Below are positions 26,533-44,400 of a stretch of DNA of 64,000 nucleotides, in pieces. A program made the translations under genes and the position numbers. Under the pieces are notes generated by a model. The model had not been told where the DNA came from, made no database searches, and saw only the letters and a program-made list of their open reading frames with translations. Source of the stretch: Dysgonomonas sp. PF1-14 (GTDB lineage: Bacteria; Bacteroidota; Bacteroidia; Bacteroidales; Dysgonomonadaceae); assembly GCF_029892965.1 (NCBI RefSeq), contig NZ_JARXWN010000018.1, forward strand, positions 1 to 64,000. The letters run 5' to 3'. The stretch's first letter is position 1, and each line of letters opens with the position of its first letter.

Positions 26533-26551
26533 GTTGTCTCACTAAGATTCG
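26533..26551. repeat. attL: duplicated 3' end of tRNA-Gln
   Basis: GTTGTCTCACTAAGATTCG is identical to 44382-44400, the 3' end of the tRNA-Gln gene. Flanking bases differ on both sides, so the exact match is 19 bp. It marks the far end of the island. Right beside it, GATTCGC and GCGAATC form a 7-bp inverted repeat. Confidence 0.85.
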
Positions 26552-26750
26552 CCAAAATTTAGCGAATCCGTTCGTGAATCAACGATTCAGTGTATTTTCA
26601 AGAAGTTAGTCCCACGATTTTGCCCACTAATATTTAGCAGTATTTTGCTATAGAATACATAGGATTGATAATATTCCAAAGATACGAAAAAAATATCTTT
26701 TGCTAGTATTACTGCTTCATTTTTCATTTCAACATTGATACATTCTCTTT

Positions 26751-28088
26751 TCATTCAGCCTCTGAATTTATTCCTTCTGTCCAGATTTTACGCAATGGCA
26801 TAAAGAAACGCCCTAACAGGGATATATCATCTGTTACAATATCTGCCTGAGCCTGTATTTCAGGCAAATAAGGAAGTTCCCTGTTATAAGTAGTTCTTAA
26901 TCCATCAGGTAATTCAATTTCTACTGTATAATAATTAATTCCTTCGGCATCTTTAGTAGGAACCATTGATATACTTTTTACTTTCCCTTTAATAATACCG
27001 TATTCATTATCTGGAAAACTTGTAAATCTGATATTTACTTTTTGTCCTACTTTTACTTTTCCCGATCTAGCCAAAGGCATTTGAGCTTTCCCAATAATCT
27101 CATTATTGTCATGAGGAATAACAGTAAATACTATTTCTCCTGCTGTTATATTTTGATTCTTTACCCAATAATTAGTAAAAGTAACTTGGCCATCTATTGG
27201 TGTTATAAGTGCATAATTTAATTCCCATGCTTGGATCTCTGAAAGTAATTGTGAAATATAAGTCTTTATCTGTGTTTCTAACTGGTTCTTCTTATCCTGA
27301 TATTGAAATTCAGTATCCAACAGGTTCTCTTGCATCTGGCTAACCTGAATTTCCGTATTCTGAATGGATGAATGGATATTTTCTAAAGATAGAGAGCCCT
27401 GTAAATATTGATTGAGTGAAATTTCCAAATCTTCAGAAGAGATAACACCTCGTTTATAAAGAAGAGAATCCCTTTGGTATTGATTTTTTTTGAGATAAAG
27501 TTGTTCTTTGCTGATGTTCTTTTGAACTATCATGTTTTTATAGTAGTCCTGATATTGATTGATCTTCTCTTTCATAAAATCAATCTTTTTGGGATAATAT
27601 TGTAATCGTTTAAATTCGTGATAATCAAAAAGAGTAATATAAAAACTGGAATATAAAGATTGTATTGGCCCAAGTTTTAAGTCTTTAGAAGGAAGACTTA
27701 TGATAGTATCTATATTTTGGTTCAGTTGTTCTATATATTGTTTTAATATTTGTATATCCTTTGTATTTGCAGAATTTTCTATTACTGCCAAAAAGTCTCC
27801 TTGTTCTACTTCTTGCATATCTATGATACTTAATTCCTGTATTTTACCAGAAGTACGGGAAACCAAAGCTGTAGCTGGCATAGAACCGGTAAGTGTCATT
27901 GAAGTGGTTATTATATCCGGATACTTAAATATAGCACTGCCTATAAGAACAATAAGAACAATTAAGGCTATAATAGTAATGCCCCTTCGTAATATCCATG
28001 AAGGGATACTTCCCATTATTTCCTGAAATTCTTCACTACGAAGTTCTATTTGCTTATCAATATCTATTTTCTCGTCTATCTTACTCAT
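26751..28088 (-). CDS. HlyD-family periplasmic adaptor of the peptide exporter
   Basis: A 445-aa protein with one N-terminal membrane helix (about residues 36-57), a long coiled-coil hairpin (about 120-290, rich in Gln/Glu/Lys) and a C-terminal beta-barrel region (QVTFTNYWVKNQNITAGE, VGQKVNIRFTSFP). This is the membrane-fusion-protein layout that links an inner-membrane ABC exporter to an outer-membrane channel. It lies 9 bp after the C39 ABC transporter gene and is the last gene of the operon; no TolC-like gene is on the island, so a host one is presumably used. Confidence 0.88.
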   Translation of the reverse strand: MSKIDEKIDIDKQIELRSEEFQEIMGSIPSWILRRGITIIALIVLIVLIGSAIFKYPDIITTSMTLTGSMPATALVSRTSGKIQELSIIDMQEVEQGDFLAVIENSANTKDIQILKQYIEQLNQNIDTIISLPSKDLKLGPIQSLYSSFYITLFDYHEFKRLQYYPKKIDFMKEKINQYQDYYKNMIVQKNISKEQLYLKKNQYQRDSLLYKRGVISSEDLEISLNQYLQGSLSLENIHSSIQNTEIQVSQMQENLLDTEFQYQDKKNQLETQIKTYISQLLSEIQAWELNYALITPIDGQVTFTNYWVKNQNITAGEIVFTVIPHDNNEIIGKAQMPLARSGKVKVGQKVNIRFTSFPDNEYGIIKGKVKSISMVPTKDAEGINYYTVEIELPDGLRTTYNRELPYLPEIQAQADIVTDDISLLGRFFMPLRKIWTEGINSEAE

Positions 28089-28097
28089 ATAAATCGT

Positions 28098-30311
28098 CTA
28101 CATTCCTAATTCCAGTTGATTCTTTACCAAAGTATAGTAGGCTCCTTTTTTATCAGTCAACTCTTTGTGCGAACCTTCTTCTATTATTTTACCCTTATCC
28201 ATAACAACGATGTTATCTGCACTTTGAACCGTGCTTAAGCGATGGGCGACTATAATAACGGTTTTCCCTTTATAAAAGTTATTCAGATTATCTAATATTA
28301 TCTTTTCGTTATTGGCATCCAATGCGTTTGTTGCTTCATCGAAAAATAGAAATTCAGGATTTTTATAAACTGCACGGGCAATTAGCAAGCGCTGACGTTG
28401 CCCTTGACTGATTCCATTTCCTTCCATACCTATTTTGGTGTTATATTTAAGAGGTAACAATTCAATAAACTCTTTAATATTGGCAACTTCTACCGAACGA
28501 ATTAAGCGTTGTTTATCTACATAGTCTTCCCCGACAGCAATATTATTAGCAATAGTATCAGAAAAAATAAAACCATCCTGCATTACAGCTCCGGATTTCT
28601 GTCTCCATAAATGAGGGTTAATATCATCAATAGGTATATCCTTTATTTTTATATTTCCTTTGTTAGGTTCATAAAAGGCTAATAATAGCTTTATCAATGT
28701 TGTTTTTCCACTACCACTGGTTCCAACTATAGCTGTAACTTTGTTCTCTGGTATGGTTAAATTGATACCATCTAAAACATAGTTTCTATCTGCACCATCA
28801 TAACTAAAATATAAATCTTCAATATGGATGGACTTATTTGAAGGAAGTTCATTAATCTTTGATTCTATTGTTTGTTCCTCATCCTCCTTATTATGGATTT
28901 CATTAAGGCGTTCAAGGCTGATTTTTGCATCTTGAGCTGCCTGAACAAACCCTATTACCTGCCCTATAGGGCCTGATAACTGTCCAATAATATAACTGAC
29001 AGCCATCATCATTCCCAACGTCATATCTCCCTCAGTAACTGAACGGGCAGCGATGAATGATATAAATAGGGAAGTTGTTTGAGTAAAAAAAACAGCACCA
29101 ATTTGCTGATATTGCCCTAACGCAAGCCCTTTAATACTTATTTTAAATAGTTTGACTTGTATGCGTTCCCATTTCCAACGTTGTTGTTTCTCAGAGTTGT
29201 TGAGCTTTATTTCCTGCATGCCTGTTACAATCTGGACTAAGTTACTTTGCTCAGCAGAAGCCTGAGAGAAGCGTGCCATATCCAGTTTACGCCTATAACG
29301 AAGGAATAACAATATCCAAATAATGTATAGGATATTGCCCAATAAGAATATCGCTAATATTACCAGATTATAATAGGCTAAAATAATAGCGAAAATGATA
29401 AAATTAACAAAGGAAAATAGAGTCATTAATGTAGAACCAGTTAAAAACGATTCAATTCGATTGTTATCTCCAATACGTTGCATTATATCTCCGACATTCT
29501 TTGTATCGAAGAAACGAATTGGTAGCCGCATAAGCTTGGCTAAAAAATCTGATATAAGGGATATACTTATGCGGGTATTAACATGAAGTGTTATCCAATT
29601 ACGTATAAATTCTACGGATAATTGGGTAATAAACAATACCAGTTGAGCAATAAGTATTAAGGTAATAAAATTCAAATTACTATTACCAATCCCTTGGTCT
29701 ACTACAGCTTGAGTCAGGAATGGCAGTATTAAAGATAAAATACTACCAACCAGCAATCCGATTACCAGCTGTATGATCTGCGATTTATACGGCTTCAAAT
29801 ATCGAAGAAAATAACTAAGATTCTTATCAGAATCATCAAAACCATTATCTTGTGTATAAAAATAGGGAGAAGGTTCTAATAATAAGGCTGAACCCGTATC
29901 TTCTCCGGCCAAACGTGAACTGATCCAGCACTTTAGAAATTCAGATTTATTCAATGTATACTTTTCACCAACCGGATCAGATATTTTTACTTCATATTCA
30001 CCATTCTTTATTTTACGTATATTATAGCATACCACAAAATGATTTTGGTTCCAATGAAGGATACAAGGCAATGGCTTTTCAGTAACGAGTTGTTCGAATG
30101 TAATCTTAACACCATTAGTACGAAAGCCTATTGACTCTGCTGCATCACTAATACCTAACATTGAGACACCTTCGCGTGTAATAAAACTTTTTTCACGCAG
30201 GCATTGAATACTGAAGCTCCGCCCATAATACTTTGCTATCATGCGTAAGCATGTTGGACCACAGTCCATAGCATCTAATTGCTGGTATGAAGGGAAAGAA
30301 AACTTAACCAT
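28098..30311 (-). CDS. C39 peptidase-containing ABC exporter
   Basis: A 737-aa bacteriocin-type exporter. The N-terminal C39 protease domain has catalytic Cys17 (DCGPTC), His91 and Asp112, and would cut the precursor after its double-glycine leader. Six-helix membrane domain at about 165-450. The ATPase domain has GTSGSGKTT (Walker A), ISQGQRQRL (signature) and FLFFDEATNALD (Walker B). It works with the HlyD protein just downstream and follows the second radical SAM-type gene by 26 bp. All key residues are present, so it looks functional. Confidence 0.92.
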   Translation of the reverse strand: MVKFSFPSYQQLDAMDCGPTCLRMIAKYYGRSFSIQCLREKSFITREGVSMLGISDAAESIGFRTNGVKITFEQLVTEKPLPCILHWNQNHFVVCYNIRKIKNGEYEVKISDPVGEKYTLNKSEFLKCWISSRLAGEDTGSALLLEPSPYFYTQDNGFDDSDKNLSYFLRYLKPYKSQIIQLVIGLLVGSILSLILPFLTQAVVDQGIGNSNLNFITLILIAQLVLFITQLSVEFIRNWITLHVNTRISISLISDFLAKLMRLPIRFFDTKNVGDIMQRIGDNNRIESFLTGSTLMTLFSFVNFIIFAIILAYYNLVILAIFLLGNILYIIWILLFLRYRRKLDMARFSQASAEQSNLVQIVTGMQEIKLNNSEKQQRWKWERIQVKLFKISIKGLALGQYQQIGAVFFTQTTSLFISFIAARSVTEGDMTLGMMMAVSYIIGQLSGPIGQVIGFVQAAQDAKISLERLNEIHNKEDEEQTIESKINELPSNKSIHIEDLYFSYDGADRNYVLDGINLTIPENKVTAIVGTSGSGKTTLIKLLLAFYEPNKGNIKIKDIPIDDINPHLWRQKSGAVMQDGFIFSDTIANNIAVGEDYVDKQRLIRSVEVANIKEFIELLPLKYNTKIGMEGNGISQGQRQRLLIARAVYKNPEFLFFDEATNALDANNEKIILDNLNNFYKGKTVIIVAHRLSTVQSADNIVVMDKGKIIEEGSHKELTDKKGAYYTLVKNQLELGM

Positions 30312-30337
30312 ACATAATTAATTTACCTATAATCAAT

Positions 30338-31597
30338 CTAAAAAATGGTTTTGAGATTACACAAATTATTTTTATTCATAACAAATTCATAATTTGATGG
30401 GGGAGGACATAAATATTGGAATACACAGTTGTTACATGGCTCATTATCCCTAATCTTTCGCCATGCTGTATTTTTATCTAATTCATTATATATAATTTCA
30501 AGTAATGTAATACTATTAAGGTTACCAATAGCGTCTGTATTCATATTCGATTTTACGGTTCCATCAGGAAATAAATATAACTTTCCAAAGTTGTTTGAAT
30601 TTAATTTTTGATTACAAAATATAGTTCTGAAAGAAATGATATTCGCTAAAATATCTTCTTTTTCCATACATATATATTCTTGAAAAAACAATTTATTATT
30701 CCCTGTATATATAGGAACAATATCATATTGATTTAAATGAGAAAATCTTTTCTCTATTTCTCTATATTGAGATTCATTTTCTATTAAAAAGTGAAATATA
30801 TTATTTGTCTCATTATTTATCAGGAAGTCCTCGAATTCTTTTTCTATAGGAAAAGAAACTATAATATCATTTATTAAATTAGTGTTATCAGATAAGAAGA
30901 ATTCATTTTTACTGAAATTCTGATAATGAGCCCATATATGAAATTCAAAATCAAATTTATATTCATCTATCAACTGTAACAATCTCTTGAGATCATTGTA
31001 TTTCGAAATATCTCCACCCATGATATTTATTTTTTTCAATAGAGAGTATTTCAGGTTTTCGAACAGGGCCCTTATTAAATCAATACTCAAATTATTTATT
31101 GAGGTTGTTTTATAACATGATTTGGTTTGTTTATAGTATATATCACAATTAGGACACTCTAATTCACAAGAATTATTTACATAGATATTAAGTTCATTAA
31201 TGTAAGTTAGAAGATCCTCACCTATTGTGAATTTTCCTTCTACCTTTAAACGTTCAATATCCTTTTGTAAATTTAATATAGGTATAAAATTAACGAACAT
31301 GGTATCAGAGCCTAGCTCATTTTGTTCTATTAGATTACCAAACTCATATTCAATGACTCTTTTAATAAAAGAGGAAAGTGATTTTTCCTGAATTTCATTG
31401 TTATTTAATTCTGCTATTCCCAAATTAGCTGGAACATACATACGTTCAATTACCTCTAGGCATACAGATGATTCTGATTCAATACATAGCCCGGTTTTAG
31501 TGTTGTAAAGTAAGAATAAATTACTCTTGCTTTTGGCATAATAGATGTGAGGAAATAAGTAAAACTTATACTTTTTATTTGAGTTTTTCATATTCAT
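30338..31597 (-). CDS. Second radical SAM/SPASM-like maturase component
   Basis: A 419-aa protein with an N-terminal region of about 130 residues resembling a peptide-recognition domain, then a radical SAM-like region with CELECPNC (Cys144, Cys148, Cys151: the C-x3-C-x2-C cluster motif) and C-terminal cysteines (CNNCVFQYLC, then a final Cys) as in SPASM domains. It matches in context the partner called pseudo-rSAM in GG-Bacteroidales peptide systems (family TIGR04150, from memory), but the Fe-S motif is intact here. It overlaps the previous maturase gene by 4 bp (ATGA), so the two probably act together on the precursor. Confidence 0.75.
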   Translation of the reverse strand: MNMKNSNKKYKFYLFPHIYYAKSKSNLFLLYNTKTGLCIESESSVCLEVIERMYVPANLGIAELNNNEIQEKSLSSFIKRVIEYEFGNLIEQNELGSDTMFVNFIPILNLQKDIERLKVEGKFTIGEDLLTYINELNIYVNNSCELECPNCDIYYKQTKSCYKTTSINNLSIDLIRALFENLKYSLLKKINIMGGDISKYNDLKRLLQLIDEYKFDFEFHIWAHYQNFSKNEFFLSDNTNLINDIIVSFPIEKEFEDFLINNETNNIFHFLIENESQYREIEKRFSHLNQYDIVPIYTGNNKLFFQEYICMEKEDILANIISFRTIFCNQKLNSNNFGKLYLFPDGTVKSNMNTDAIGNLNSITLLEIIYNELDKNTAWRKIRDNEPCNNCVFQYLCPPPSNYEFVMNKNNLCNLKTIF

Positions 31598-32853
31598 TTA
31601 ACGATTACTTCAGTCATGATTTTATAATAAGCATCTGGATGATTTGCAAAAAAAGCAAGTTGATTATTCCTATATTCTTCATATACTTCTTTTGACATAA
31701 ATCTATGGCATGCTACTTTATTCTGGTCTATATCAGGTATGTAAAAAATACATTGAGAACATGCCTGTTTATTGTAACATGATTTACATTGTGTATCCAA
31801 TTTTTTATAATAATTATTATATTTTTTAGCGATATATTCAAAGTCAATATTTGTACTGTTATCTGATAATTGACCAAGTGCAAATTTATGATCTACACGT
31901 TCACATGGTAATATTTTTCCATTAACTGTCACATACACTTTTCTCCCAAAAGGAATACATGTACCAGTAGGAATTATATATGACCTTTTACGCCCTAGGA
32001 GTAATTCATTATAGTCTTTGTAGACAAATTCATTATATTGCTGAAGAAAAATGGACGCTGAATAATATGCTCCCGATTTCATAAACATATCTTCTTCTAT
32101 TTTTTTCGAATGCTTTGATAGGCGTAGGCTTTCAGCAGAGTTATTATATATATTTAAAAATTGTACTTTCATTTCGCGACGGACCCCCATATCATTTAAT
32201 TCGCTAATAATAGGATTTTTGTTATACTTATTTTTAAAAAATGTATAAATACCTTCTACAGAATTGAGGTTATGCAAAACTGAGCTGAAATTTACCTTTT
32301 GTTCAAAATATTCGGGATATTTCTCTCTTAAAAGATTCACATTATCTGTTATTTTCTTGAAAGCAGGATGGCCAGCCAAATCAATACGGTATGCAGTTCC
32401 AGCTTCATCTCCGTCTAGACTTATTAAAAGATTAAAATTTTTCTGAACCAGATAATCCATGTACTTATTAAGCAAAGTAGCATTTGTCGTTATCGAAAAA
32501 GTGAAAACTCTTGTTCTACAATTTAACTCATTGTTGATATAATCAACAATTTTTTCTATAAAGTGCATATTTAATAGAGGTTCTCCTCCATAAAAGCTAA
32601 CATAAATATCTTTCTTGTAGGATTTATTAAGGGGAGACTCCCAAAGTCTTTTTAAGTAATCCAGAAAAGTAATAGCTTTTTGAGTAGACAGAACATTATT
32701 CTTTCTTTCATCATAATCAGAATAAATATCTCCATATGCACAATAAGTACATTTAAGATTACAAGCATCAGTAACTTCAAATGTTATTTGAGGTGTATTA
32801 GCTAAAGCTATTTCAACATCTCTCGCTTTCAAATATGTTATAGTTTTATTCAT
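31594..32853 (-). CDS. Radical SAM peptide maturase with SPASM-type tail
   Basis: A 419-aa enzyme with CNLKCTYC (Cys31, Cys35, Cys38) for the SAM-binding 4Fe-4S cluster, the FYGGEPLL motif near residue 94, and a C-terminal Cys cluster (CKSCYNKQACSQC, later CHRF) for auxiliary clusters. Such enzymes install thioether or C-C crosslinks in ribosomal peptides. Context and architecture fit the GG-Bacteroidales maturase family (TIGR04148, from memory), whose substrates carry a CGCGC core like the precursor here. The product bond is not known. It lies 49 bp after the aspartyl-protease-like gene. Confidence 0.85.
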   Translation of the reverse strand: MNKTITYLKARDVEIALANTPQITFEVTDACNLKCTYCAYGDIYSDYDERKNNVLSTQKAITFLDYLKRLWESPLNKSYKKDIYVSFYGGEPLLNMHFIEKIVDYINNELNCRTRVFTFSITTNATLLNKYMDYLVQKNFNLLISLDGDEAGTAYRIDLAGHPAFKKITDNVNLLREKYPEYFEQKVNFSSVLHNLNSVEGIYTFFKNKYNKNPIISELNDMGVRREMKVQFLNIYNNSAESLRLSKHSKKIEEDMFMKSGAYYSASIFLQQYNEFVYKDYNELLLGRKRSYIIPTGTCIPFGRKVYVTVNGKILPCERVDHKFALGQLSDNSTNIDFEYIAKKYNNYYKKLDTQCKSCYNKQACSQCIFYIPDIDQNKVACHRFMSKEVYEEYRNNQLAFFANHPDAYYKIMTEVIVK

Positions 32854-32902
32854 CTCATTCTTTAGTTTGGAACCTATAATGTTTTTCCTTAATTTGAGTT
32901 AG

Positions 32903-34132
32903 TTATTCTAAGATAATTAATGTACCATCTGCTTTCTTTATTGTCAAACATTGAGCCTGTTTAAATAACAATGTAATATCATCTGCATCCAACTTATAAT
33001 CAATTGGCTTTCTATCAATTTCAATTACTTTATCAATAGGTCTCACATTTTTTATATATCCCTCTCGTTTTTCAATAAGTTGTTTCACATAGATATGATC
33101 GACACTATCTTTATTTTGCTTGTTTCGTTTTAGATATAGAGTTATACCCCATTTATCATATGGATTATTTTTTAAATGAGGGACAGTATCTTTTGGTAAT
33201 TGATAATAATGAAAAGTTGAAGATCTTTCATCAAACGCAATATTGTATTCAGAAAAAAAATCCATCCCAAGCAACCCATCAAGATTCAAATTTTCAGAAA
33301 AATATACACTCATATTTGTAGAGTCAATATCTCCCCAGTTTACAGTTACTCCCTCTAAAGAAATTACCGAATACAACACATTTGCGTTTTCTCCATCAGT
33401 AGCAATAGTTTTATCATATGGTAAATATTTATGCTTTTCGATAAATTTACTATTAAGCATTATTCCTGCCTGAAAACCAAGATCAAAACCAAATAAGCCA
33501 GAAACATTAACAGTAGTATCCTTTGTATGTATCTTGAAAGAAATGATCGCAGATGGTATATTGTTAAATCCACCTTTTTTATACTCTAATGTATTTTGTG
33601 GATATTGTAAACTGTCTAGTAATGCAATATACTTTTCTTTATCATTTACATTTATGATCTTCTTTTTAGAAAGAAGGTTCATAGGTAAAATATTCAAACC
33701 ATGAGTAAGAATACATTTTTCTATCAAGATAGTATCATTATGAATTTTCACTTTTAAAGGTTTATCCGGATCAATTATTCCTTCATACGCCTTAAGCATT
33801 CTCTCTGGTGTTTGTAATAGAATTTGTTTACCTGTTGTGATGGGTAATTGATCGTTCGCAGCCTGCAAAGAATCTATTAAAAATGTTTTTGCTCCACTAT
33901 CAAGGAAAAAATCATTTTTTGATGTTCCTATAATATTATCATTCTCATCCAAATATGTCAAGGGAATATAAAAATATCCATATTCATATCTTGCAGGAAT
34001 TATATAGGCATCAATATCATCACAAAATAGAGATAGATATTTTTTCTCACTTTGAGGAATATTTTCTTGTTTTGGGGAATATGAACATGAAACTAAAATA
34101 AAGAAAATGATGTAAATACTATTTTTACTCAT
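32903..34132 (-). CDS. Retropepsin-like aspartyl protease lipoprotein
   Basis: A 409-aa lipoprotein (lipobox Cys16, LVSCS) with FFLDSGAKTFLID (Asp78-Ser-Gly) like the active-site loop of retropepsin-type aspartyl proteases, and a second half with FGFDLG and GLLGMDFFSEYN that repeats the fold. The C-terminal part (about residues 325-409, KNVRPIDKVIEIDRK) resembles a PDZ-like domain. It sits between the precursor and the maturases, so it may process the exported peptide or protect the producer; both are inferences. Located outside the inner membrane if the lipobox is used. Confidence 0.7.
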   Translation of the reverse strand: MSKNSIYIIFFILVSCSYSPKQENIPQSEKKYLSLFCDDIDAYIIPARYEYGYFYIPLTYLDENDNIIGTSKNDFFLDSGAKTFLIDSLQAANDQLPITTGKQILLQTPERMLKAYEGIIDPDKPLKVKIHNDTILIEKCILTHGLNILPMNLLSKKKIINVNDKEKYIALLDSLQYPQNTLEYKKGGFNNIPSAIISFKIHTKDTTVNVSGLFGFDLGFQAGIMLNSKFIEKHKYLPYDKTIATDGENANVLYSVISLEGVTVNWGDIDSTNMSVYFSENLNLDGLLGMDFFSEYNIAFDERSSTFHYYQLPKDTVPHLKNNPYDKWGITLYLKRNKQNKDSVDHIYVKQLIEKREGYIKNVRPIDKVIEIDRKPIDYKLDADDITLLFKQAQCLTIKKADGTLIILE

Positions 34133-34324
34133 ATAATTTTGTTTTTCAAGTTTTCGGATAATTTTCTGTTAGGGAAAGAAAATCACTGTTTTTAAACGTC
34201 ATCAACGCCAATGGATTTGTCTTTTGACTTTTCAACCTATGGAACCTGTTCCCTAGTATTCGAGTTTTATATAGATGTTAATGAATATAAACACAGCAAA
34301 TTATTATCAATATTGTTATAATGA

Positions 34325-34376
34325 GGGTGTACTAAGGATTATTTCTTATCAAAGAAATACTCTCCCAGCAACACCC
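34325..34376 (-). promoter_or_regulatory. Nested RNA hairpin after the precursor gene
   Basis: An inner perfect inverted repeat TATTTCTT/AAGAAATA (34340-34359) is enclosed by GGGTGT (34325) and ACACCC (34371). It lies 15 bp after the precursor stop, within a 258-bp gap before the protease gene. It could partially stop transcription or protect the precursor mRNA, giving more precursor than enzyme. Confidence 0.45.
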
Positions 34377-34390
34377 CCATGTCGTACAGG

Positions 34391-34675
34391 TTATTTATAT
34401 CTACCCATCGCCGAAGCAGAAATAATTTCTATTACTCCTGGACTAACATAACGCCATTTTACGTCACTGGATATCCAATCATTATATCCACCATAACTAG
34501 TCTTTCCATAAGAACCATTGGTACACATATTAACTGCTGAGGCTGATCCCCCAGAAGAGGAATAATGACACCCACACCCACAAATACTATAACCGCCTTT
34601 GAGCTCATTCATCTCAATGTCAGTTAAACTTTTTAACGCTAAAGAATTCAGTTTTAGCTTTTTTAGTTTTTTCAT
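34391..34675 (-). CDS. RiPP precursor, GG-Bacteroidales type
   Basis: A 94-aa peptide with a Lys/Leu-rich leader (MKKLKKLKLNSLALKS) ending in EMNELKGG at residues 21-28, the cut site for C39 exporters. The 66-residue core starts YSICGCGCHYSSSGGS, with Cys at 32, 34, 36 and 51 and many Gly, Ser and Tyr. Leader and CGCGCHY-x3-GGS core resemble the GG-Bacteroidales natural product precursors (TIGR04149, from memory) that are radical SAM substrates. Ser-rich parts could accept sugars, in line with the glycosyltransferase upstream. The core is long, so a second cleavage may trim it. Confidence 0.85.
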   Translation of the reverse strand: MKKLKKLKLNSLALKSLTDIEMNELKGGYSICGCGCHYSSSGGSASAVNMCTNGSYGKTSYGGYNDWISSDVKWRYVSPGVIEIISASAMGRYK

Positions 34676-34765
34676 AACAATTAGTTTTAATTATTGCCTA
34701 CTCTATGTAAATCGCTTTTTCGGCATCCAGCATTTTTTAGTTCTGTATCAGACAATGCCTTTATA

Positions 34766-35542
34766 CTATTTAATATAGAATAATGTACCAAATCCAGCTA
34801 ATCCTTTATGTAAGCCTAATGCTTGATAGTGAATATTTTTTATTATTTCATTTGTTTCCAAACAAATAATTTCCTCTTCGCCATCTGTAATAGTTTGTCT
34901 TTTTTTACAATAAATTAAATTCTCCCAATTTAGATATGTATTCTTATGATTTGGAAATTTCTTTAATAACAACCGGCATCTCTCTTGATCATCCACATGT
35001 CCAATCTTGATTAACTGTGTGAGAAAAAAAACAATAGAATTTTTATAAATATGAGGCAGTGTTTCTATAGGAACAGATGGAAGAAACGTTTCCAATTCAT
35101 ATAAAGTATTTGATAAATCTTCCTTCAAGCCTCTAGCTGTAAAATAAAGTCCTTTTGAAAACAATGGGATTTTTTCGTCCAAATCTTCTAAAAACTGTTT
35201 TGTTGTTATTTCGCGTACCGCATCATCTATATCGTCGAATAAATCACTTTCTGCAACTACATACTGTTCCTGTACCAAATAATTTAATCCCCATCCAATA
35301 CCAGGTAATCCTTCAGCAAAAAACATTGATGCATCATCATTTACCTGGCTGTAAATCTTATCCAATAGCGATTCAGCTAATGCCTCATATTGAGAGTTGT
35401 TTGAATATCGAGCATACTGATATAAAAATATAGTTACTCCCATTCTCCCTGTTAATAAACTATTGGATGGTATGCATTGAACCGTGATACTAATAGTATT
35501 TGCTATTTCTTGTAAAATTCTGGTGTTACTCATATTACTCAT
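34766..35542 (-). CDS. LanC-like protein, apparently without zinc ligands
   Basis: A 258-aa protein starting at the ATG at 35542, which overlaps the end of the glycosyltransferase frame (ATGAGTAA); a longer start at 35587 is less likely. LLTGRMGVTIFLYQYAR, GLPGIGWGLNYL and the end GLHKGLAGFGTLF match the Gly-rich turns of LanC-type alpha/alpha barrels. The Cys-His zinc motifs of lanthionine cyclases (WCYG, CHG) were not found, and the protein is shorter than typical LanC (about 400 aa). It may be a scaffold or handle sugars or peptides without cyclase chemistry. A possible frameshifted tail follows, see findings. Confidence 0.65.
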   Translation of the reverse strand: MSNMSNTRILQEIANTISITVQCIPSNSLLTGRMGVTIFLYQYARYSNNSQYEALAESLLDKIYSQVNDDASMFFAEGLPGIGWGLNYLVQEQYVVAESDLFDDIDDAVREITTKQFLEDLDEKIPLFSKGLYFTARGLKEDLSNTLYELETFLPSVPIETLPHIYKNSIVFFLTQLIKIGHVDDQERCRLLLKKFPNHKNTYLNWENLIYCKKRQTITDGEEEIICLETNEIIKNIHYQALGLHKGLAGFGTLFYIK

Positions 35543-37385
35543 TTTTGTGTGATTGCTTAAAAGCGATAACTCTACGGAAAAAATCAATTAAATCTTTTAC
35601 ATGGAAATCGAAACTGAAAGAAAGCCTATTAGATAATATATTATTCTGTAATTTTTCCATTTGTATTTTATCATATAACTGACCAGCTAGGTCCTCATAA
35701 TGCTTAAAAAATATTCCAACATTCATTTTCTGAAGGTAAGATTGAGTTGCAACTATATGCCCATCATTATTCTTTTGTATCATAGGTATGCCCCCTGCAG
35801 CCAGTACACTCATCCGGGCAGGCATATTTAGATCATCCCATGTTAAAAGAGCAAATTCGCCGTTGTTCCTACTTTCAAAACAATGTAACCAGCCTGCGTC
35901 ATACTGTGAGAATTCTTTAGTCCAATGCTCTTATGAGCAATGATTATGATGATGTACAAATTTGGGAGCTATTTTTAAAGCATTGTATGCAAATGATCTT
36001 TGGCTAGGATTCGATTCGTAAATATGAAGATGAATTCTTTGTTTGGCTAGATATTCTACTCCATCTAACCCCAAACCGATATTCCGACCAGGTAAGACAG
36101 TGTGAATATCTCCATCTATTGCGGATAATTTAGGATAAAAATCATTTGTAAAACAATCTCCTTTAGGCAAATCTCCATCCAATATATATGTTAATCCTGT
36201 TGTTGTGGGTATAAATTGGTTATACCAAGTTTCGCACTCAGGATTGAGATAAATTTTCCCATCAGCTAAACGGTATAATTCAATAAGCTTATTCCAGGTA
36301 CCATTTGCTTGAGTAATAAATGGACTTTCCTTATAATGCCAAATGAATGGTATATCCGGAAATTTTCTTATTACATCATAAGCTATAGGAATAGCTCCAA
36401 AATTTAACAAACCATAAATAATATCAGGTTTTATTTTTTGAATTTCATTTTCCCAATTTTCTAAAGAAATGTCTTCAACATGCCCAAAAGGAAGGTGTCC
36501 TACGTTATTTATAAAAAATGTAGGCCGCTCCATCCACAAACCAAATAGACGATGCCCTTCTTTTTCCAAAGAATATATTCGTTCGGGATGGTAGGACAGT
36601 TCTCCAACTAAAAGAATTTTCAAACCATCTTTTTGATAGACAGGTGGTTTTCGAAAATCCTTATACGATTCAACCTCATCAATAAATTTAGAATCAGAAA
36701 CTCGGACTCTCAAAGGTTCTTCAACATTGTAATACTGCCTGTAATAGTTGAAATGTCCTCCATATTCTTCATTCAATATAACATGATGTTGATATGAATG
36801 GATAGTCCAGTTTGAAGTTATTTTATCGATATGATAAAATATACCTTTAGAAACTAATTTATGCCAAAACAACAGAAATAAGTCATCAGTGACTAATTCT
36901 GAACGTGTAATCCATCTATCTTCTGTTTTTTTATGAGCCGTTTGCACCAGCTGTAAACAACGCATATCAAAAAGACCTTGTGTTGTTGTGCGTTTTATAC
37001 TCTGAATTGAGTTTTCCACTTCTGAATCTGCTGCTGCATAAACCAATATTCTATCATTGGATTCATCTAATGCTTTCTTTACGATATCTAAATGATCTTT
37101 ATAATAAAAATCGTCTGAGGGTAGATAAGCAATGTATTCATATTTAGCCATATCCAACCCTTGATTCAAAGCAAACCCTAATCCTTTATTTCGTTCATTC
37201 TTTATATAGCTAATACGATTGTCTGATAAATAATCTTGTATATAAATTTCTGTATTATCTGTACATCCGTCATTAATAATAATCAATTCCCATTGCTGAT
37301 ATGTTTGAGAGAATAAACTTTGTATAGCGCGCCGTATATAAGCAGATTGATTATACGTTGGCATGATGACTGAAAAACCATTCAT
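35535..37385 (-). pseudogene. Two-domain glycosyltransferase split by an in-frame TAA
   Basis: The N-terminal part is a GT2 transferase (FSVIMPTYNQ, INDGCTDNT, YLPSDD as DxD region). From about residue 225 a GT4/GT1-like domain follows (KILLVGELSYHPERI, PDIIYGLLNFG). A TAA stop at 35931-35933 ends a 484-aa frame after HHNHCS. The same frame then stays open for 131 more codons (EHWTKEFSQYDAGWLHCF, later MPARMSVLAAGGIPM), which is the expected C-terminal donor-binding end of the GT4 fold. One base change (for example CAA to TAA) would explain this. The product would have been about 616 aa and act on the peptide or a glycan with the UDP-galactopyranose mutase upstream. The first half alone could still retain GT2 activity. 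Confidence 0.85.
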
Positions 37386-38488
37386 AAGCTTAGATGTTTA
37401 ATGTGATTGTATAATATAATTGCCTCTTGGATAATTTCATCCATATTATAATATTTATAAGCACCCAAACGACCCGCAAAATAGACATCTTTACTTTGTT
37501 CTGCCTTTTTTTTATATTGCTCGTACCGTTTATTATTTTCAGTCGTATTGACAGGATAAAATGGTTCTCCATCATCTTTCCAAGGGGCAGGAAATTCTTT
37601 TGTGATAACTGTATTTGGCTGTTTACCAAATTCAAAGTGCTTAGATTCTATAATTCTGGTGTATGGAGTTTCCCTGTCAGTATAATTAACCGCAGCATTA
37701 CCCTGATAATTCTCTATCTCTAAAGTTTCCATCTCAAAACGTAAAGAGCGGTATTCCAACTGTCCAAAACAATAATCGAAATACCGGTCTATTGCTCCTG
37801 TATAAATAGTAACCTTAGCTTTATTTGTTAATTCTCTATGCGATAAAAAATCTGTATTTATTAATACATCAGCTTTTGCAAAGCATTTTTCGAAAATAGG
37901 ATTATAACCTCCTATTGGTATACCCTGATATATGTCATTGTAATAATTATTGTTATATGTAAACCGAAAAGGTAATCTTCTGATAATAAATGCAGGAAGG
38001 TCTTTGGAGTCTTTACCCCATTGCTTTTCCGTATAGCCTTTTATTAGTTTATGATAGATATCTGTACCAACCAAAGATAAGGCCTGTTCTTCTAAATTCT
38101 CCGGATAAGATACTTGTAGTTGTTGAGATTCTATTTTAGATAAGGCTTCTTTAGGGGTTTTAGTCCCCCATAATTGATAAAATGTATTCATGTTAAAAGG
38201 GAGATTATATATTTCTCCTTTGTAGTTAGCGATTGGGGTATAAACAAAATGATTGAAATTACATAAGGAACGCATATATTCCCAGACAGACTCGTTAGAT
38301 GTATGAAAAATATGAGGTCCATATACATGGACGTTAATACCTTCTATATTCTCACAATATAGATTTCCCCCAATATGAGATCGTTTTTCTACAACCAGAC
38401 AGCGTTTTCCATCCAAAGAAGCTTCTCTTGCAAAAATTGCATTAAAGAGTCCTGCCCCAACCAGAAGGTAATCATATTTATTTTTCAT
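37382..38488 (-). CDS. glf: UDP-galactopyranose mutase
   Basis: A 368-aa flavoprotein converting UDP-galactopyranose to UDP-galactofuranose. It shows the FAD-binding DYLLVGAGLFNAIFA, then GGNLY, YGPHIFHT, a YTEKQWGK motif and the C-terminal YFAGRLGAYKYYNMD typical of the family. The start at 38488 (MKNKYDYLLVGAG) fits family length; an upstream ATG at 38536 would add 16 residues. It overlaps the glycosyltransferase by 4 bp (ATGA) and is the first gene of the peptide operon. Its presence in a RiPP operon suggests a galactofuranose modification, which is inference. Confidence 0.9.
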   Translation of the reverse strand: MKNKYDYLLVGAGLFNAIFAREASLDGKRCLVVEKRSHIGGNLYCENIEGINVHVYGPHIFHTSNESVWEYMRSLCNFNHFVYTPIANYKGEIYNLPFNMNTFYQLWGTKTPKEALSKIESQQLQVSYPENLEEQALSLVGTDIYHKLIKGYTEKQWGKDSKDLPAFIIRRLPFRFTYNNNYYNDIYQGIPIGGYNPIFEKCFAKADVLINTDFLSHRELTNKAKVTIYTGAIDRYFDYCFGQLEYRSLRFEMETLEIENYQGNAAVNYTDRETPYTRIIESKHFEFGKQPNTVITKEFPAPWKDDGEPFYPVNTTENNKRYEQYKKKAEQSKDVYFAGRLGAYKYYNMDEIIQEAIILYNHIKHLSL

Positions 38489-38538
38489 GCTTTTATGTAG
38501 ATTCGTGGTTTGTAAACTTAGGTCTTTATTTAACATTT

Positions 38539-38572
38539 AAGGAGGACATTTGAACAATAAAGGAGGACATTT
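38539..38572. repeat. Two 21-bp spaced direct repeats upstream of glf
   Basis: AAGGAGGACATTT occurs at 38539-38551 and 38560-38572, exactly 21 bp (two helical turns) apart. On the minus strand it reads AAATGTCCTCCTT twice, after a TGTTTAAATG start. This could be a regulator site for the operon or the repeated end of a lost IS21-type element. Confidence 0.5.
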
Positions 38573-38640
38573 AAACACTTTTTGTCATTCAGACACTAGA
38601 GGCAAATTGAGTTTCATGGGGAAAAAGTTATATCCGTTAT

Positions 38641-38656
38641 TTGTTAACGCTAACAA
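38641..38656. promoter_or_regulatory. Palindrome in the operon's upstream region
   Basis: TTGTTAACGCTAACAA is a perfect 6+4+6 inverted repeat in the 282-bp gap between glf and the relaxase gene. It is a plausible operator for the peptide operon; no regulator on the island is clearly linked to it. Confidence 0.35.
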
Positions 38657-38770
38657 AATCATCGACTTAACATTTTTATTAATATAAAAAAAGTCATATC
38701 TTCTAGTTTATAGCTATATTTGACATATTTAGGCATAGTTATTGTACCTAAAAAAAGTATATATTTTTTA

Positions 38771-39994
38771 TTATCTTTTTAATCCTCTTTTTCGTTTTTG
38801 TTCCTGCCGTTTCATTCGTTTTGAGAATACATCTTCTTCCATATCTGTTCCATGCTGCTCAAACAAAGAGAGGAATGAAGAAGATATGTCTATATTCTGC
38901 CTGTTTGGATTATCATAGTTTTGTAGGTCGGCATTAAAACTTTGAGGAACAGGATTCTTGAATCTCTCCTCAAACATATTTGCTGAAAACTCTTTTCCCA
39001 AGCGAGAGCCATTCAGCACAGCTTTATTCTGATAATCAATAAAAGTGACCCCATAAATCCGGTTCTGATCGTTTCTTCTGAATATAGGCTCTATATTTTT
39101 TTCTTTCAGCAGCAGAGAAAATTCATCTATGGATTGAGCTTGTTGCATGGCTTTAGTGATAATCGGCTTCAAGTATTCTCTGGTCTTATTGTCCGCTATC
39201 TGCTGTTTTGATTTCTCAAAATGCTGATTGAGTATCTGCAAATTGATATCCTTGCCGAATAAGGATGATTTAAACGGTGTGCCGACTTTCTGTTTATTAT
39301 CATCCAAAGCCGAATATACCAGTCCTTGATACGGGATATTATTTTGAGTGCCTTTTACTTCTTCAACTGTTACATTCATCTTTTCCAATAAAGTATTGTA
39401 TTCCCCAATAGTTTGGAAGCTGAAATTCCGAAGTATGACTTTAGCGATATTTCCTACCTGCCGTTTTACATCTCCCTCTTTGTAATTCAATGGTTTTGTC
39501 GGGATAGTATATACCTGTTTTTCTTGCTTGGTAGCCGGATGCAGATTGTAGTCTTTCTCAATCTGACGACATATCTTCATTGAGCGTACTTTCTCAAAAT
39601 TGGAATCGATTTTCTTGTCCGTTTCATCTACCCGAATTGATACAACATGAAGATGAATGCGGTCTATGTCCGTATGCTTAAATACTACATAGGGTTGGTT
39701 TCCATAGCCCATATCCAACATATACCTATCAGCTATATCCTTGTAATCTTCATCGGATAGTTTGTCTTTCGGACTGGGATTAATTGATACATGGAATATC
39801 GGGTTTTCGGTTCTTCTATTAGCTGTCAAATAAGGCTCGAATGATTTTAATGTAGTCTGCATAGCAAATAAACCATCCGTCCTCTCATATACATTGTTGG
39901 ATGATAGAAGCTCTGCTTCGTCTTTATCTATCTTATTTTTATTGTACAAAAGCGTACCGAAAAGGGAGGTATTGGAACTTATTTTTGCAACCAT
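38771..39994 (-). CDS. Relaxase/mobilisation nuclease
   Basis: A 407-aa protein of the MobA/VirD2-like relaxase family of Bacteroides mobilisable elements. It has the metal-binding HUH motif in VFKHTDIDRIHLHVV (His107, Asp109, His114, His116) and an upstream FHVSINPSPKD strand. It would nick the island at oriT and lead the strand into a helper conjugation apparatus. It overlaps the mobC gene by 16 bp. The basic C-terminus (KRMKRQEQKRKRGLKR) fits a DNA-binding protein. Confidence 0.88.
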   Translation of the reverse strand: MVAKISSNTSLFGTLLYNKNKIDKDEAELLSSNNVYERTDGLFAMQTTLKSFEPYLTANRRTENPIFHVSINPSPKDKLSDEDYKDIADRYMLDMGYGNQPYVVFKHTDIDRIHLHVVSIRVDETDKKIDSNFEKVRSMKICRQIEKDYNLHPATKQEKQVYTIPTKPLNYKEGDVKRQVGNIAKVILRNFSFQTIGEYNTLLEKMNVTVEEVKGTQNNIPYQGLVYSALDDNKQKVGTPFKSSLFGKDINLQILNQHFEKSKQQIADNKTREYLKPIITKAMQQAQSIDEFSLLLKEKNIEPIFRRNDQNRIYGVTFIDYQNKAVLNGSRLGKEFSANMFEERFKNPVPQSFNADLQNYDNPNRQNIDISSSFLSLFEQHGTDMEEDVFSKRMKRQEQKRKRGLKR

Positions 39995-40410
39995 TCTTTT
40001 TCTAATTGTTGAAGCTGGATTTCTATTTCCTTATAAGTAGTAACCAATCCGATAGTCGCTTTCTCCAATTTGTAGAGATAAGCCAATGCCTTTTTCTCGC
40101 CTAATTGCTCTTTCAGTAAGCGTAGAAGCTGGTTATAATTATTCCCAATCTTTCTCATTTGACCTCTGAACTGGGATAGTTTTATGATATAATCCATCCT
40201 TGCTTTATCAATTATCTTGACTTTCAGGGAACTGTTCAGCACCTTATCCCGGATAAAATGAGCCGGATATTTATATCCCGACAGATGGAACATCGTTTCA
40301 AAACGGATGTTGTCAGCTTCATTGAGCCGCACATAATGCCTATGGATAGCCGGATCGGCTTTAGGCTTACGTCCGGAATTGGATTTTCTTGAATTACTAT
40401 TTGTATGCAT
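39979..40410 (-). CDS. MobC-like relaxosome protein
   Basis: A 143-aa basic protein with GRKPKADPAIHRHYVRLNEADN and a FRGQMRKIGNNYNQLLRLL segment, the hallmark of plasmid mobilisation MobC proteins (RxxxxNxNQ-type). It helps the relaxase melt oriT. The downstream relaxase start overlaps its end, so the two are coupled. Its start is next to the candidate oriT. Confidence 0.85.
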   Translation of the reverse strand: MHTNSNSRKSNSGRKPKADPAIHRHYVRLNEADNIRFETMFHLSGYKYPAHFIRDKVLNSSLKVKIIDKARMDYIIKLSQFRGQMRKIGNNYNQLLRLLKEQLGEKKALAYLYKLEKATIGLVTTYKEIEIQLQQLEKEWLQK

Positions 40411-40439
40411 CTGTTTAGTCTTTAGTTCTTCTTCATTTA

Positions 40440-40690
40440 TAATTGACTTCGTCGATTACTTTGCAGTTCCCCCTTTGGGGATTAAGGGGCTGGTCTTTTA
40501 TCTTTTTTCTCCTGAACTCCGACTTTGGAGGCGTTCCTCCCCCGACTTTCAAAGGAGTGGGGCGAGTTATTTTGAAGCATCTGAAATTATTTTCAGGGGC
40601 TCAAAATACAACTCGCCTTAGACCTATGTCTAAGAAAATCCGCTTGTAGGCGGATTCATTGGTAATCTCTGAATAAGATTCATGCTTTAT
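40440..40690. other. Candidate origin of transfer region
   Basis: The gap between mobC and the DUF3408 gene is rich in inverted repeats: CCCCCTTTGGGG (near 40468), a TCCTCCCCCGACTTTC/GAAAGTCGGGG-like GC-rich pair near 40535-40565, and AATCCGC/GCGGATT (near 40638-40656). Position just upstream of mobC is usual for oriT. No nick site was identified, so this is a positional call. Confidence 0.35.
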
Positions 40691-40715
40691 CGAGAGTAGG
40701 AAGAAAATATCAGAG

Positions 40716-41036
40716 TCAGTCTGATTCATTATCTTCTTCATTGTCGGATCTTCTTGAACCGATAGAATCAATATCTTTTACGAATTGTTCCCCGGCTTCC
40801 TGCCATAGAGCATTCAGCAAATCTTTATTTGTCTGGAAGTGCTCATTTAATATAGCATCTGCCAGTGACGATGTAGTGGTGTAATTATCGAACTTAAATA
40901 AAAAGGCAGTGTCTTTCAGCTTTTGATAAGCTTCTTCACTGACATATATTACCCTGCGGTTGCGTATGCGCTTCTCCAGACAGAACAATTCCGTATATTG
41001 TTCTTTGGTTAATGTGTTAGATTTTCTTTGTCTCAT
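40716..41036 (-). CDS. DUF3408-type mobile-element protein
   Basis: A 106-aa protein with RVIYVSEEAYQKLKDTAFLFKFDNYTTTSSLADAILNEHF, a ribbon-helix-helix-like pattern found in DUF3408 proteins of Bacteroides conjugative and mobilisable elements. The acidic tail is RRSDNEEDNESD. It probably binds DNA during mobilisation. It is transcribed toward mobC across the candidate oriT. Confidence 0.7.
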   Translation of the reverse strand: MRQRKSNTLTKEQYTELFCLEKRIRNRRVIYVSEEAYQKLKDTAFLFKFDNYTTTSSLADAILNEHFQTNKDLLNALWQEAGEQFVKDIDSIGSRRSDNEEDNESD

Positions 41037-41922
41037 AACCGGATAAATTAATGGATTAATAATTTGTTTGAATACAGATTCCCGTGTCGATTACTGCTAC
41101 AAATAAAATCATAAATATCAATGAATTAAAACAAAGCAGCCCGATTGGAGCATTATACTTTCAATCGCTGTATATTGCTTTATAAGCCGGGGAGAGAAGA
41201 CATATATCCTGCTCTATTCTGCTTTCCGGATGAAATAATAACTTATGGCTGTAATGATTCAATAATAGATAGTATCATTGATAGATAGGCAAAAAGACTT
41301 ATTGATATAGAATTATCTATAAATACATATACAAAAACTGATGTCCTTATTTGAATAAGAACCGAAATCCTTCCTTATATAAGGATTAGTATATGAATTG
41401 AAAGAAATATTGAATGAAGGACTGTTCTATGTATTGATTCTGGTATTGATGTCAATCTTGATGCAAATACAAGTGTCAATACTAAAATACTAAAATCCTA
41501 CTATATACCAATATTGAAACACTTACTGAAAAAAATCTGGCTTTCTTCTTATCCTATTGATTATATCGAAGCCCGGCCAACCACTGCCAACGACTACCAC
41601 CCCGCTGTGGATTTACCTACTCTTTCAAAAGAACTCCCGAAATTTATATTGATTTTGCTATTCCATCTGGAATTTGTAAAAAAAACGACACTGTCGGACA
41701 AGGGCTGCCAGTGAATTGAAATGTGATGTTAGTATCAATAATTCGGGTTTACTTTACCGGAAATTTTGGATTAACATTCTTTATGGCATCTATCCGGTGT
41801 CAATCAGCGCCAAATGATGCCAACAGGCAGAGGACTATTGATATAGCCAAATATTGTGCCTTTATTTGCCAGAACGAACGATTATTGAGAAGTATAATAT
41901 AAACCTAAAACAAGATTAGCCT
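41037..41922. other. Gene-poor AT-rich stretch in the island
   Basis: About 890 bp between divergent genes. It holds a small hairpin AATCCTT/AAGGATT (41366-41387), a repeated ACTAAAAT near 41482 and an unsupported frame of 66 codons at 41514-41714. It probably contains the promoters of the flanking genes, but no clean promoter match was found. Confidence 0.5.
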
Positions 41923-42213
41923 ATGGGATTAAAAATTATTGACGAAAAAGTTTTTGAGAGAATGAAGCAACTGATAAGGATGCTTCATGAAAGAAGTAAA
42001 AATATGGTGCCGAAATCGGCTAAAGGAGAATGGGTGGATAATCAGGATGTACTCCTGCTGTTGGGGATTTCACTTCGTACCCTCCAGTCGTACCGGGATA
42101 GGGGCGTATTACCTTATTCGCAGATCGGGCATAAGTGTTATTACAAGCTATCGGATGTGCAGTTGTTATTGGAAAAATCAAGAATTGATAAATCGCTAAA
42201 GAATAAAAGATAA
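41923..42213 (+). CDS. Small HTH DNA-binding protein (excisionase-like)
   Basis: A 96-aa protein with WVDNQDVLLLLGISLRTLQSYRDRGVLPYSQIGHKCYYKLSDVQLLLE, the MerR-like helix-turn-helix of helix_turn_helix_17/excisionase proteins common on Bacteroides elements. Its TAA shares one base with the ATG of the next gene, so the two are co-translated. It probably controls excision or mobilisation. Confidence 0.78.
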   Translation: MGLKIIDEKVFERMKQLIRMLHERSKNMVPKSAKGEWVDNQDVLLLLGISLRTLQSYRDRGVLPYSQIGHKCYYKLSDVQLLLEKSRIDKSLKNKR

Positions 42214-42512
42214 TGGAAGATGAAGATGTATTGGGGAAGAACTCTCCTGAAATCAAGGAGCTGCTGGCTCTGGTACAGGAGACGGAGGATAATATCGAGC
42301 TAAGCCTCAAAGCAAACAAACCCGGACTATATGGCGAACATTACCTGAATAACAAGCAGGTATGCGATCTGCTACATATATCCATGCGCAGCTTGCAGGA
42401 TTACCGGGACAAGGGAAGGATAGCATTCTACAAATTGGAGGGCAAGATACTCTATGCCGAATCGGATATCTATAAGATGCTGGAAGATAATTATTATAAG
42501 GCTTGGCAGTAA
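42213..42512 (+). CDS. Second small HTH DNA-binding protein
   Basis: A 99-aa paralogue of the preceding protein, with NNKQVCDLLHISMRSLQDYRDKGRIAFYKLEGKILYAESDIYKML. Start overlaps the previous stop (TAATG). Such pairs accompany tyrosine integrases in Bacteroides elements and likely act as recombination directionality or regulatory factors; which is which cannot be told from sequence. Confidence 0.78.
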   Translation: MEDEDVLGKNSPEIKELLALVQETEDNIELSLKANKPGLYGEHYLNNKQVCDLLHISMRSLQDYRDKGRIAFYKLEGKILYAESDIYKMLEDNYYKAWQ

Positions 42513-42920
42513 TATAAATCAAGCAAAGTTTAACTAAAAAAGCCAAGCCGGATAGTAGCACTATTACCTCCCTAACTAACAACAATTATTTTTTCTTTTT
42601 CCGACTGGTAACCATTTTTTACAGGAAGCAGAATAAATGAGACAAATCTTTTCCTAAAGGGAAAACCTGTCAGGGCTTGGATTTGGCGTTTTATTCGCTT
42701 CCTGTTCTTTTGTGGGCGGAGGAATAAAAAGAAAATCTTTAAAAATGAGAAGTTTACCTAGAAGTGTACATTATTGTACGCTTCACTTCTTGCCGGAGAG
42801 TTTTTTTGTTATGCAGGGAAACGGAATAACGAAAAGTCTCGCACGGCTTATAAAAATAAAAAGCGGATTGATTAGTTTTAATTCGCTTTCGGTTTTATCT
42901 GTTTTTTCCAAAGTGAAAAA
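42513..42920. other. Gap between HTH genes and integrase
   Basis: About 400 bp downstream of both converging genes. It contains a TTTTCC/GGAAAA inverted repeat (42649-42665) followed by a GC-richer stretch. No gene is supported; the 75-codon frame at 42712 looks fortuitous. Confidence 0.5.
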
Positions 42921-44141: not shown

Positions 44142-44326
44142 TTTAAATACAATTTTAATGATACAAAGTTATTAACTCATCATCAAGCTATATCTACGCA
44201 AAATACAGTGTATCAATGAATAAAATCATAATAATGGGACATTTTATGTGGAATCCGAAGTCCCACTCATAAGCCACTAAAGTGTTGCTTTAAACCACTG
44301 TTTTCAGCATAACGGACTAAAATAAA

Positions 44327-44357
44327 AATCCCTAATAATTATTCATTATCAGGGATT
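44327..44357 (-). terminator. Terminator between tRNA-Gln and int
   Basis: Arms AATCCCTAATAAT (44327-44339) and its near complement (44345-44357, one G-T pair). On the minus strand the hairpin is followed by ATTTTTATTTT, a good intrinsic terminator. It lies inside the island and would stop tRNA transcription from running into int. Confidence 0.65.
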
Positions 44358-44381
44358 TACTTCTTTCTTCGTATCTACTCC

Positions 44382-44400
44382 GTTGTCTCACTAAGATTCG
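44382..44400. repeat. attR within the tRNA-Gln 3' end
   Basis: Nineteen bases identical to 26533-26551. They cover the acceptor stem strand and part of the T arm of tRNA-Gln, the usual target of tyrosine integrases. The tRNA on this side is intact. Confidence 0.85.

Follow-up and report, generated by a model that had tools for sequence, protein, structure and literature searches.

Does the operon at positions 26751-38488 of contig NZ_JARXWN010000018.1 from Dysgonomonas sp. PF1-14 (Bacteroidota, Bacteroidales) specify a peptide that is both crosslinked and glycosylated? We analysed a 64,000-nucleotide stretch of this contig, here called the window. The operon combines a radical S-adenosylmethionine (SAM) pathway for a ribosomally synthesized and post-translationally modified peptide (RiPP) with three further genes, for UDP-galactopyranose mutase (glf), a glycosyltransferase and a LanC-like protein, which we call the sugar module. 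From the sequence comparisons we lean towards the reading that radical crosslinking and cytosolic glycosylation, perhaps with galactofuranose, share one precursor and one exporter, with the sugar step probably impaired in PF1-14.

Gene content and predicted pathway

The operon comprises nine genes, all on the minus strand, given here from first to last with profile scores and cut-offs.

37382-38488, minus: UDP-galactopyranose mutase, glf (TIGR00031, 375 bits, cut-off 304)
35535-37385, minus: two-domain glycosyltransferase gene with an in-frame TAA at 35931-35933 (PF00535, 106 bits, first part)
34766-35542, minus: LanC-like protein, 258 aa, without zinc ligands (PF05147, 29.6 bits, cut-off 23.2)
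34391-34675, minus: precursor peptide, 94 aa, with a double-glycine (GG) leader and a CGCGC core (TIGR04149, 53.6 bits, cut-off 25)
32903-34132, minus: retropepsin-like aspartyl protease, probable lipoprotein (PF13650, 28.1 bits, cut-off 24.3; FLDSGA)
31594-32853, minus: radical SAM/SPASM peptide maturase (TIGR04148, 514 bits, cut-off 300; CNLKCTYC)
30338-31597, minus: "pseudo-rSAM" protein (TIGR04150, 314 bits, cut-off 250; CxxxCxxC present as CELECPNC at 144)
28098-30311, minus: C39 peptidase-containing ABC exporter (PF03412, 108 bits, cut-off 22; also PF00664 and PF00005)
26751-28088, minus: HlyD-type membrane fusion protein (PF13437, 54 bits, cut-off 22)

Neighbouring genes overlap or are at most 50 bp apart, except that gaps of 90 bp and 258 bp precede and follow the precursor. 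The LanC-like protein and the aspartyl protease pass their cut-offs only narrowly; the start of the latter is lipobox-like, as judged by eye. The glf product is a full-length equivalog match to TIGR00031 and is thus a predicted mutase. The precursor is the sole significant match in the whole window to a GG-leader profile that includes this precursor. Profile scores and gene calls agree with a preliminary description of this DNA on the genes present, their order and strand, the CGCGC core and the start of glf (a better start gives the same coordinate, 38488).

The adjacent, overlapping TIGR04148 and TIGR04150 genes, both over cut-off, and the TIGR04149 leader of the precursor place the operon, by profile score, in the TIGR04148/04149/04150 system. 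On these scores, the radical-SAM half belongs to a kind known from Bacteroides, and the view that a radical-SAM RiPP operon has a sugar module alongside it is borne out by family scores and gene order. Among near-full-length relatives of the TIGR04150 protein, 21 of 43 (two places counted twice) keep the CxxxCxxC motif, as does the window copy, so about half of this "pseudo-rSAM" family may be real radical SAM enzymes.

We infer the chemistry, including the sugar, its acceptor and the role of the LanC-like protein, as follows. The TIGR04148 enzyme, with its TIGR04150 partner, would crosslink the cysteine-rich core of the 94-aa precursor, as expected from its family. The glf product would make UDP-galactofuranose, from which the two-domain transferase would add a sugar in the cytosol while the zinc-less LanC-like protein holds the peptide. 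The C39 exporter would then cut at the GG of the leader and export the product with HlyD.

Interrupted glycosyltransferase

The transferase gene consists of 484 codons, a TAA and a further 131 in-frame codons that remain open; intact relatives are about 615 residues long. Identity to the same seven relatives is 53-60% for the first part and 50-61% for the second. The stop is recent or a sequence error, because sequence conservation is about equal on its two sides. Since the transferase loses its last 131 residues to the TAA, the sugar step in PF1-14 is probably partial or lost, unless the stop is a sequencing error. A model of the homologous transferase from Dysgonomonas sp. 25 (locus L068; pLDDT 91.4, pTM 0.83) matches GT2-fold enzymes as well as GT-B enzymes (MshA, PglA, Gtf3). 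The GT-B match presumably belongs to the second part, with the stop falling inside it, because sequence matches cover only the first part; the structure matches carry no aligned ranges.

The GT2/GT4 transferase of the preliminary description is therefore present with its GT2 domain, although not as a single open gene, and for a peptide said to be one that "is, or was," decorated, "was" is the likelier word. Split genes occur elsewhere: glf lies in two frames in L069 (12639-13725) and L125 (12790-13898), and the transferase in two pieces in L145 (10001-11841). L125 and L145 are metagenome-assembled genomes (MAGs) and L069 is a draft; the change in the window, by contrast, is a stop codon.

The sugar module in other loci

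In three loci (L068, the same locus as L108, L070 and L086) glf, transferase, LanC-like, C39 and HlyD genes occur together with no radical SAM genes. A fourth (L077, at a contig end) has glf, LanC-like, C39 and HlyD genes, with neither transferase nor radical SAM genes. GG peptides were found in L068 and L069. We scored the best 80 of at least 530 transferase loci; contig ends cut many of the stretches, making all counts lower bounds. Taxon groups follow record titles, so that two MAGs titled "bacterium" count as non-Bacteroidota and Sunxiuqinia (Prolixibacteraceae) counts with Bacteroidales. The 41 Bacteroidota loci include glf in 18, C39 in 15, HlyD in 9 and radical SAM genes in 2; a GG leader is present in 11, a count that is not independent because 29 leaders of these same loci, that of the window among them, went into the leader profile. 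The LanC-like gene is found in 24 of the 41, and in 22 of the 24 Bacteroidales loci, counts biased by a transferase query drawn from LanC-anchored loci. None of 20 control stretches from related genomes (383,680 bases) has any of the scored gene types.

Pairing was also counted in LanC-anchored loci, where 21 of 26 LanC-like genes have a same-strand transferase within 200 bp; neither these loci nor the TIGR04150-anchored set used below were chosen by the transferase, although some transferase query sequences came from them, and L108, L115, L235, L267 and L322 were left out of the adjacency counts as repeats. Outside Bacteroidales, Chitinophaga silvisoli (L142) has adjacent transferase, glf, C39 and HlyD genes with a leader-type peptide upstream. 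At 2602-4218 the same locus encodes a protein that joins C39-peptidase, VKOR and thioredoxin domains; a Cys-rich leader-type peptide lies next to it.

Thus, C39/HlyD and GG peptides repeatedly accompany the glf-transferase-LanC module, in most cases in the absence of radical SAM genes, which suggests that the module is a recurring partner of exported peptides. That the cassette adds sugar to an exported GG peptide in these relatives has, in our judgement, a slightly better than even chance.

Radical-SAM loci and hybrids

Conversely, we scored 56 stretches around over-cut-off TIGR04150 matches and some weaker or partial ones (the window and L124 are left out, and L235 and L267 are repeats). C39 is present in 29 and a LanC-like gene in 17, and any transferase-like gene in 18 of 54 with repeats removed. 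Both halves are partly combined in four loci:

L125 (one and the same site as L235): transferase, LanC-like, glf in two pieces, precursor, a 265-aa gene matching no assigned family, radical SAM, an intervening 880-aa gene, TIGR04150, C39 and HlyD, with glf placed differently in the module than in the window
L124: transferase, LanC-like, precursor, radical SAM, TIGR04150 and a second LanC-like gene, without glf
L251: C39, HlyD, LanC-like, GT4, precursor, radical SAM in two pieces, TIGR04150, window-type transferase and LanC-like, without glf
L234: glf, radical SAM, precursor, TIGR04150, LanC-like (below threshold in one repeat-filtered scan), two other transferases, C39 and HlyD

Because of these four partly similar hybrids, the modules are separable and were joined repeatedly or in the distant past. 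The radical-SAM proteins of L125 are only 38-48% identical to those of the window, which likewise makes the combination old or repeated. The gene order put forward as a check is therefore found elsewhere in part, although 54 of the 56 TIGR04150 stretches have no glf.

Phylogeny of UDP-galactopyranose mutase

In the tree, ten rows form a clade (100/99) that contains the window glf, and every one is a glf from a cassette; the L289 glf, identical to the L118 glf, beside a transferase, is counted here as a cassette glf. A second glf in the 4.58-Mb PF1-14 genome (L268) is 41% identical to the first and lies outside its clade. The glf genes of G094 and G014:C13, with no cassette in the 20 kb inspected, fall near distant cassette rows, and only the clade of the window glf itself is clean. 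The galactofuranose of the preliminary description gains some support because other peptide clusters, too, pair glf of this one sub-clade with this transferase and the LanC-like gene; the scarcity of glf in TIGR04150 stretches counts on the other side.

One product or two unrelated pathways

Several observations weigh against a product made by both halves. The transferase is broken in PF1-14, and one genome of this species was sampled. Only 2 of the 56 TIGR04150 stretches have glf (L234, L235) and only 2 have a transferase of the window type (L235, L251); the sugar module is therefore no part of the core radical-SAM pathway, and the expectation that both genes would accompany related precursor/maturase loci largely failed. 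In the TIGR04150 stretches an adjacent transferase was found for only 8 of 18 LanC-like genes. None of the 39 transferase loci outside Bacteroidota has glf, nor a LanC-like gene, C39, HlyD, GG leader or radical SAM gene, so this transferase family need not use galactofuranose. Within Bacteroidota, only 2 of the 17 loci outside Bacteroidales have the LanC-like gene (glf is present in 7 and C39 in 6). In the glf tree as a whole the cassette label shows no clustering (5 changes, with 186 of 500 shuffles as low, the L289 glf being scored as "other" in this test). The precursor is similar to those in radical-SAM loci that lack glf, and no feature of it marks a sugar site. A sugar on the PF1-14 product itself is unlikely.

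These points bear on a different history, which we consider possible if somewhat improbable: a working radical-SAM RiPP operon may have been joined on one element to a decaying glf-transferase-LanC remnant of another GG-peptide cluster, in which case the peptide would be crosslinked and never sugared. The TAA within the transferase fits such decay, as do the cassettes of L068, L070 and L086, which have their own C39/HlyD and no radical SAM genes, and the general lack of glf around TIGR04150 genes. The single precursor also looks like those of radical-SAM loci: a CxCxC...GGSxS...N pattern, seen by eye, is common to it and to such loci without glf. Against a remnant, however, L125 also lines up the sugar module, a precursor, an extra gene, radical SAM, TIGR04150 and C39, albeit with the differences in glf position and the 880-aa gene noted above. 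Moreover, the element holds only one precursor, and conservation of the transferase is about equal before and beyond the TAA. We still lean towards the reading in which both modifications serve one peptide.

It is quite improbable that glf and the transferase act in making a capsule or another surface glycan and are only chance neighbours of the RiPP genes. Polysaccharide loci usually hold glf and GT2 genes, and the second glf of the genome has none of the cassette partners within the 20 kb inspected. The window glf, however, lies inside the clade of cassette glf, and cassettes with C39/HlyD and GG peptides recur in Bacteroidota loci versus none of the 20 control stretches.

LanC-like protein

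The PF05147 match of the LanC-like protein is confined to residues 41-108. Its predicted fold is LanC-like, with LanC-type chains as the top structural matches. Lacking is the C...CH zinc motif (judged by eye), and the consensus of 29 aligned LanC-like sequences contains no conserved cysteine. The name given in the preliminary description thus suits the profile match and the fold; judging from the missing zinc motif, and despite that fold, the protein is hardly a lanthionine cyclase. That it forms lanthionine rings, making the product a lanthipeptide, is extremely improbable, the profile match and fold notwithstanding, given the absent zinc motif and conserved cysteine, the lack of a dehydratase (LanB or LanM) among the ten operon open reading frames scanned by profile search, and, in the account of PMC10352776, the same missing motif in three Bacteroidales clusters and no LanB in the genomes of that study.

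Compared with LanC and with the C-terminal domains of LanM and LanKC, proteins of the window type are shorter, have no zinc ligands or operon dehydratase, and often lie beside transferases. We rejected a frameshift-shortened gene as the cause of the short length: the end coincides with that of relatives, and an internal stretch is missing instead. A LanC-like match is present in 29 of 101 genomes of the family. In Bacteroides sp. 519 (L109, 11847-14045) a LanC-like domain is fused to a GT4 glycosyltransferase.

A wider proposal, which we put forward tentatively and at a little less than even chance, is that zinc-less LanC-like proteins of Bacteroidales may be dedicated substrate-holding partners of cytosolic glycosyltransferases. 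Together with a specialised glf they would decorate GG-leader peptides with galactofuranose-containing sugars ahead of C39 export. This step would, in some loci and here on an integrative element, be stacked on radical-SAM crosslinking, giving a doubly modified class of peptides.

Integrative element

The preliminary description called the operon transferable and gave no borders. We identified the following features.

26533-44400, no strand: integrative, probably mobilizable element of 17,868 bp with the operon as cargo (border repeats, low GC, integrase, relaxase, MobC)
26533-26551, no strand: far attachment (att) copy of 19 bp, identical to the tRNA-Gln 3' end (exact repeat; on the minus strand a terminator-like stem, judged by eye, comes after it)
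38771-39994, minus: MobA/VirD2-type relaxase (PF03432, 98 bits)
39979-40410, minus: MobC-like protein (PF19514, 150 bits)
41923-42512, plus: two small helix-turn-helix (HTH_17) proteins (PF12728)
42921-44141, minus: tyrosine integrase (PF00589, PF13102, PF17293)
44382-44400, no strand: att copy within the intact tRNA-Gln gene (44382-44453, minus), exact 19-bp repeat

Both borders carry the exact 19-bp direct repeat, which is the 3' end of tRNA-Gln, and the far copy lies just past HlyD. This repeat came from an exact 13-mer comparison; a 23-base att search allowing 3 mismatches returned only the tRNA. The relaxase, MobC, HTH_17 and integrase genes lie upstream of the operon, with the integrase adjoining tRNA-Gln. 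GC content is 0.26-0.38 in the genes measured inside the element and 0.39-0.48 in the stretches measured outside. An integrase, a relaxase and att repeats at a tRNA are the features of an integrative mobilizable element, and the operon is the cargo of an integrative element that is probably mobilizable.

The match between one relative (G005) and the window extends down to 44318, some 64 bp past tRNA-Gln. The flanks of five relatives gave no match to the element or to the window left of it, and we found no empty copy of the tRNA-Gln site in them, which counts against the element. No plasmid matched the element in a near-match search; plasmid-borne relatives of the window radical SAM protein are all below 60% identity. 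No transferase relative is encoded by any of the 22 viral stretches scanned. In another locus (L084, 8055-14136) a LanC-like gene and an overlapping GT4 gene lie about 3.6 kb from relaxase and MobC genes, whose products are each 46% identical to those of the window. Because of this proximity, other LanC-like/transferase modules may also be mobile.

Relation to known systems

In glycocins, a GT2-type cytosolic transferase (SunS) is encoded beside a GG-peptide exporter. The window operon likewise pairs a GT2-type transferase with a GG-peptide exporter; unlike glycocins, it adds glf, a second transferase domain and a LanC-like partner. The transferase profile matches SunS weakly (E about 1e-4), in the GT2 part only.

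TIGR04148/TIGR04149/TIGR04150 radical-SAM RiPP clusters are described from Bacteroides uniformis ATCC 8492 and B. fragilis 3_1_12 (Walsh et al., 2015; PMC4573289). These share with the PF1-14 operon a GG precursor and a radical SAM pair, an adjoining lipoprotein gene (B. fragilis), and a C39 exporter with HlyD (B. uniformis). The account of these clusters does not name glf, the two-domain transferase or a LanC-like gene, and the PF1-14 operon differs further in lying on an integrative element. Many class I LanC proteins were counted in Bacteroidetes (PMC7268733). A 2023 survey of 1,340 areas reports radical SAM and LanC together in 263, with a peptide S-glycosyltransferase in addition in 41; for the zinc-less LanC-like proteins of three clusters it doubts a lanthipeptide role and judges them nearer to endoglucanases (PMC10352776). 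Its Bacteroidales clusters BGC3-5 resemble the PF1-14 operon in combining radical SAM, pseudo-rSAM and zinc-less LanC-like proteins, with a glycosyltransferase in BGC3 and carbohydrate-active enzymes in BGC5. In contrast to our findings, the main text of that survey does not contain "galactopyranose" and describes no LanC-transferase partnership or mobile element.

Going by these accounts, the radical-SAM half is already in print, as are clusters with radical SAM, LanC-like and glycosyltransferase genes (PMC4573289, PMC10352776), which narrows the novelty first claimed for the locus; the part of that claim that stands is that we found no galactofuranose-decorated RiPP in the open-licence papers searched. 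Added here are the element borders, the transferase stop and the LanC-like/transferase pairing. If the module works as proposed, it would yield a set of predicted glycopeptides across Bacteroidota, give a job to orphan LanC-like genes that surveys find puzzling, and constitute a portable peptide-modification cargo.

Other genes in the window

A 3329-aa protein encoded at 12622-22611 of the window matches SpvB, TcdB-middle, RHS-repeat and, at its C terminus, Tox-URI2; it is adjoined by a 1001-aa protein with a sub-cut-off match to a type IX sorting tail. Two more RHS-repeat proteins are encoded at 1952-4264 and 9066-11525, one of which has a Peptidase_M91 effector-like domain near its end.

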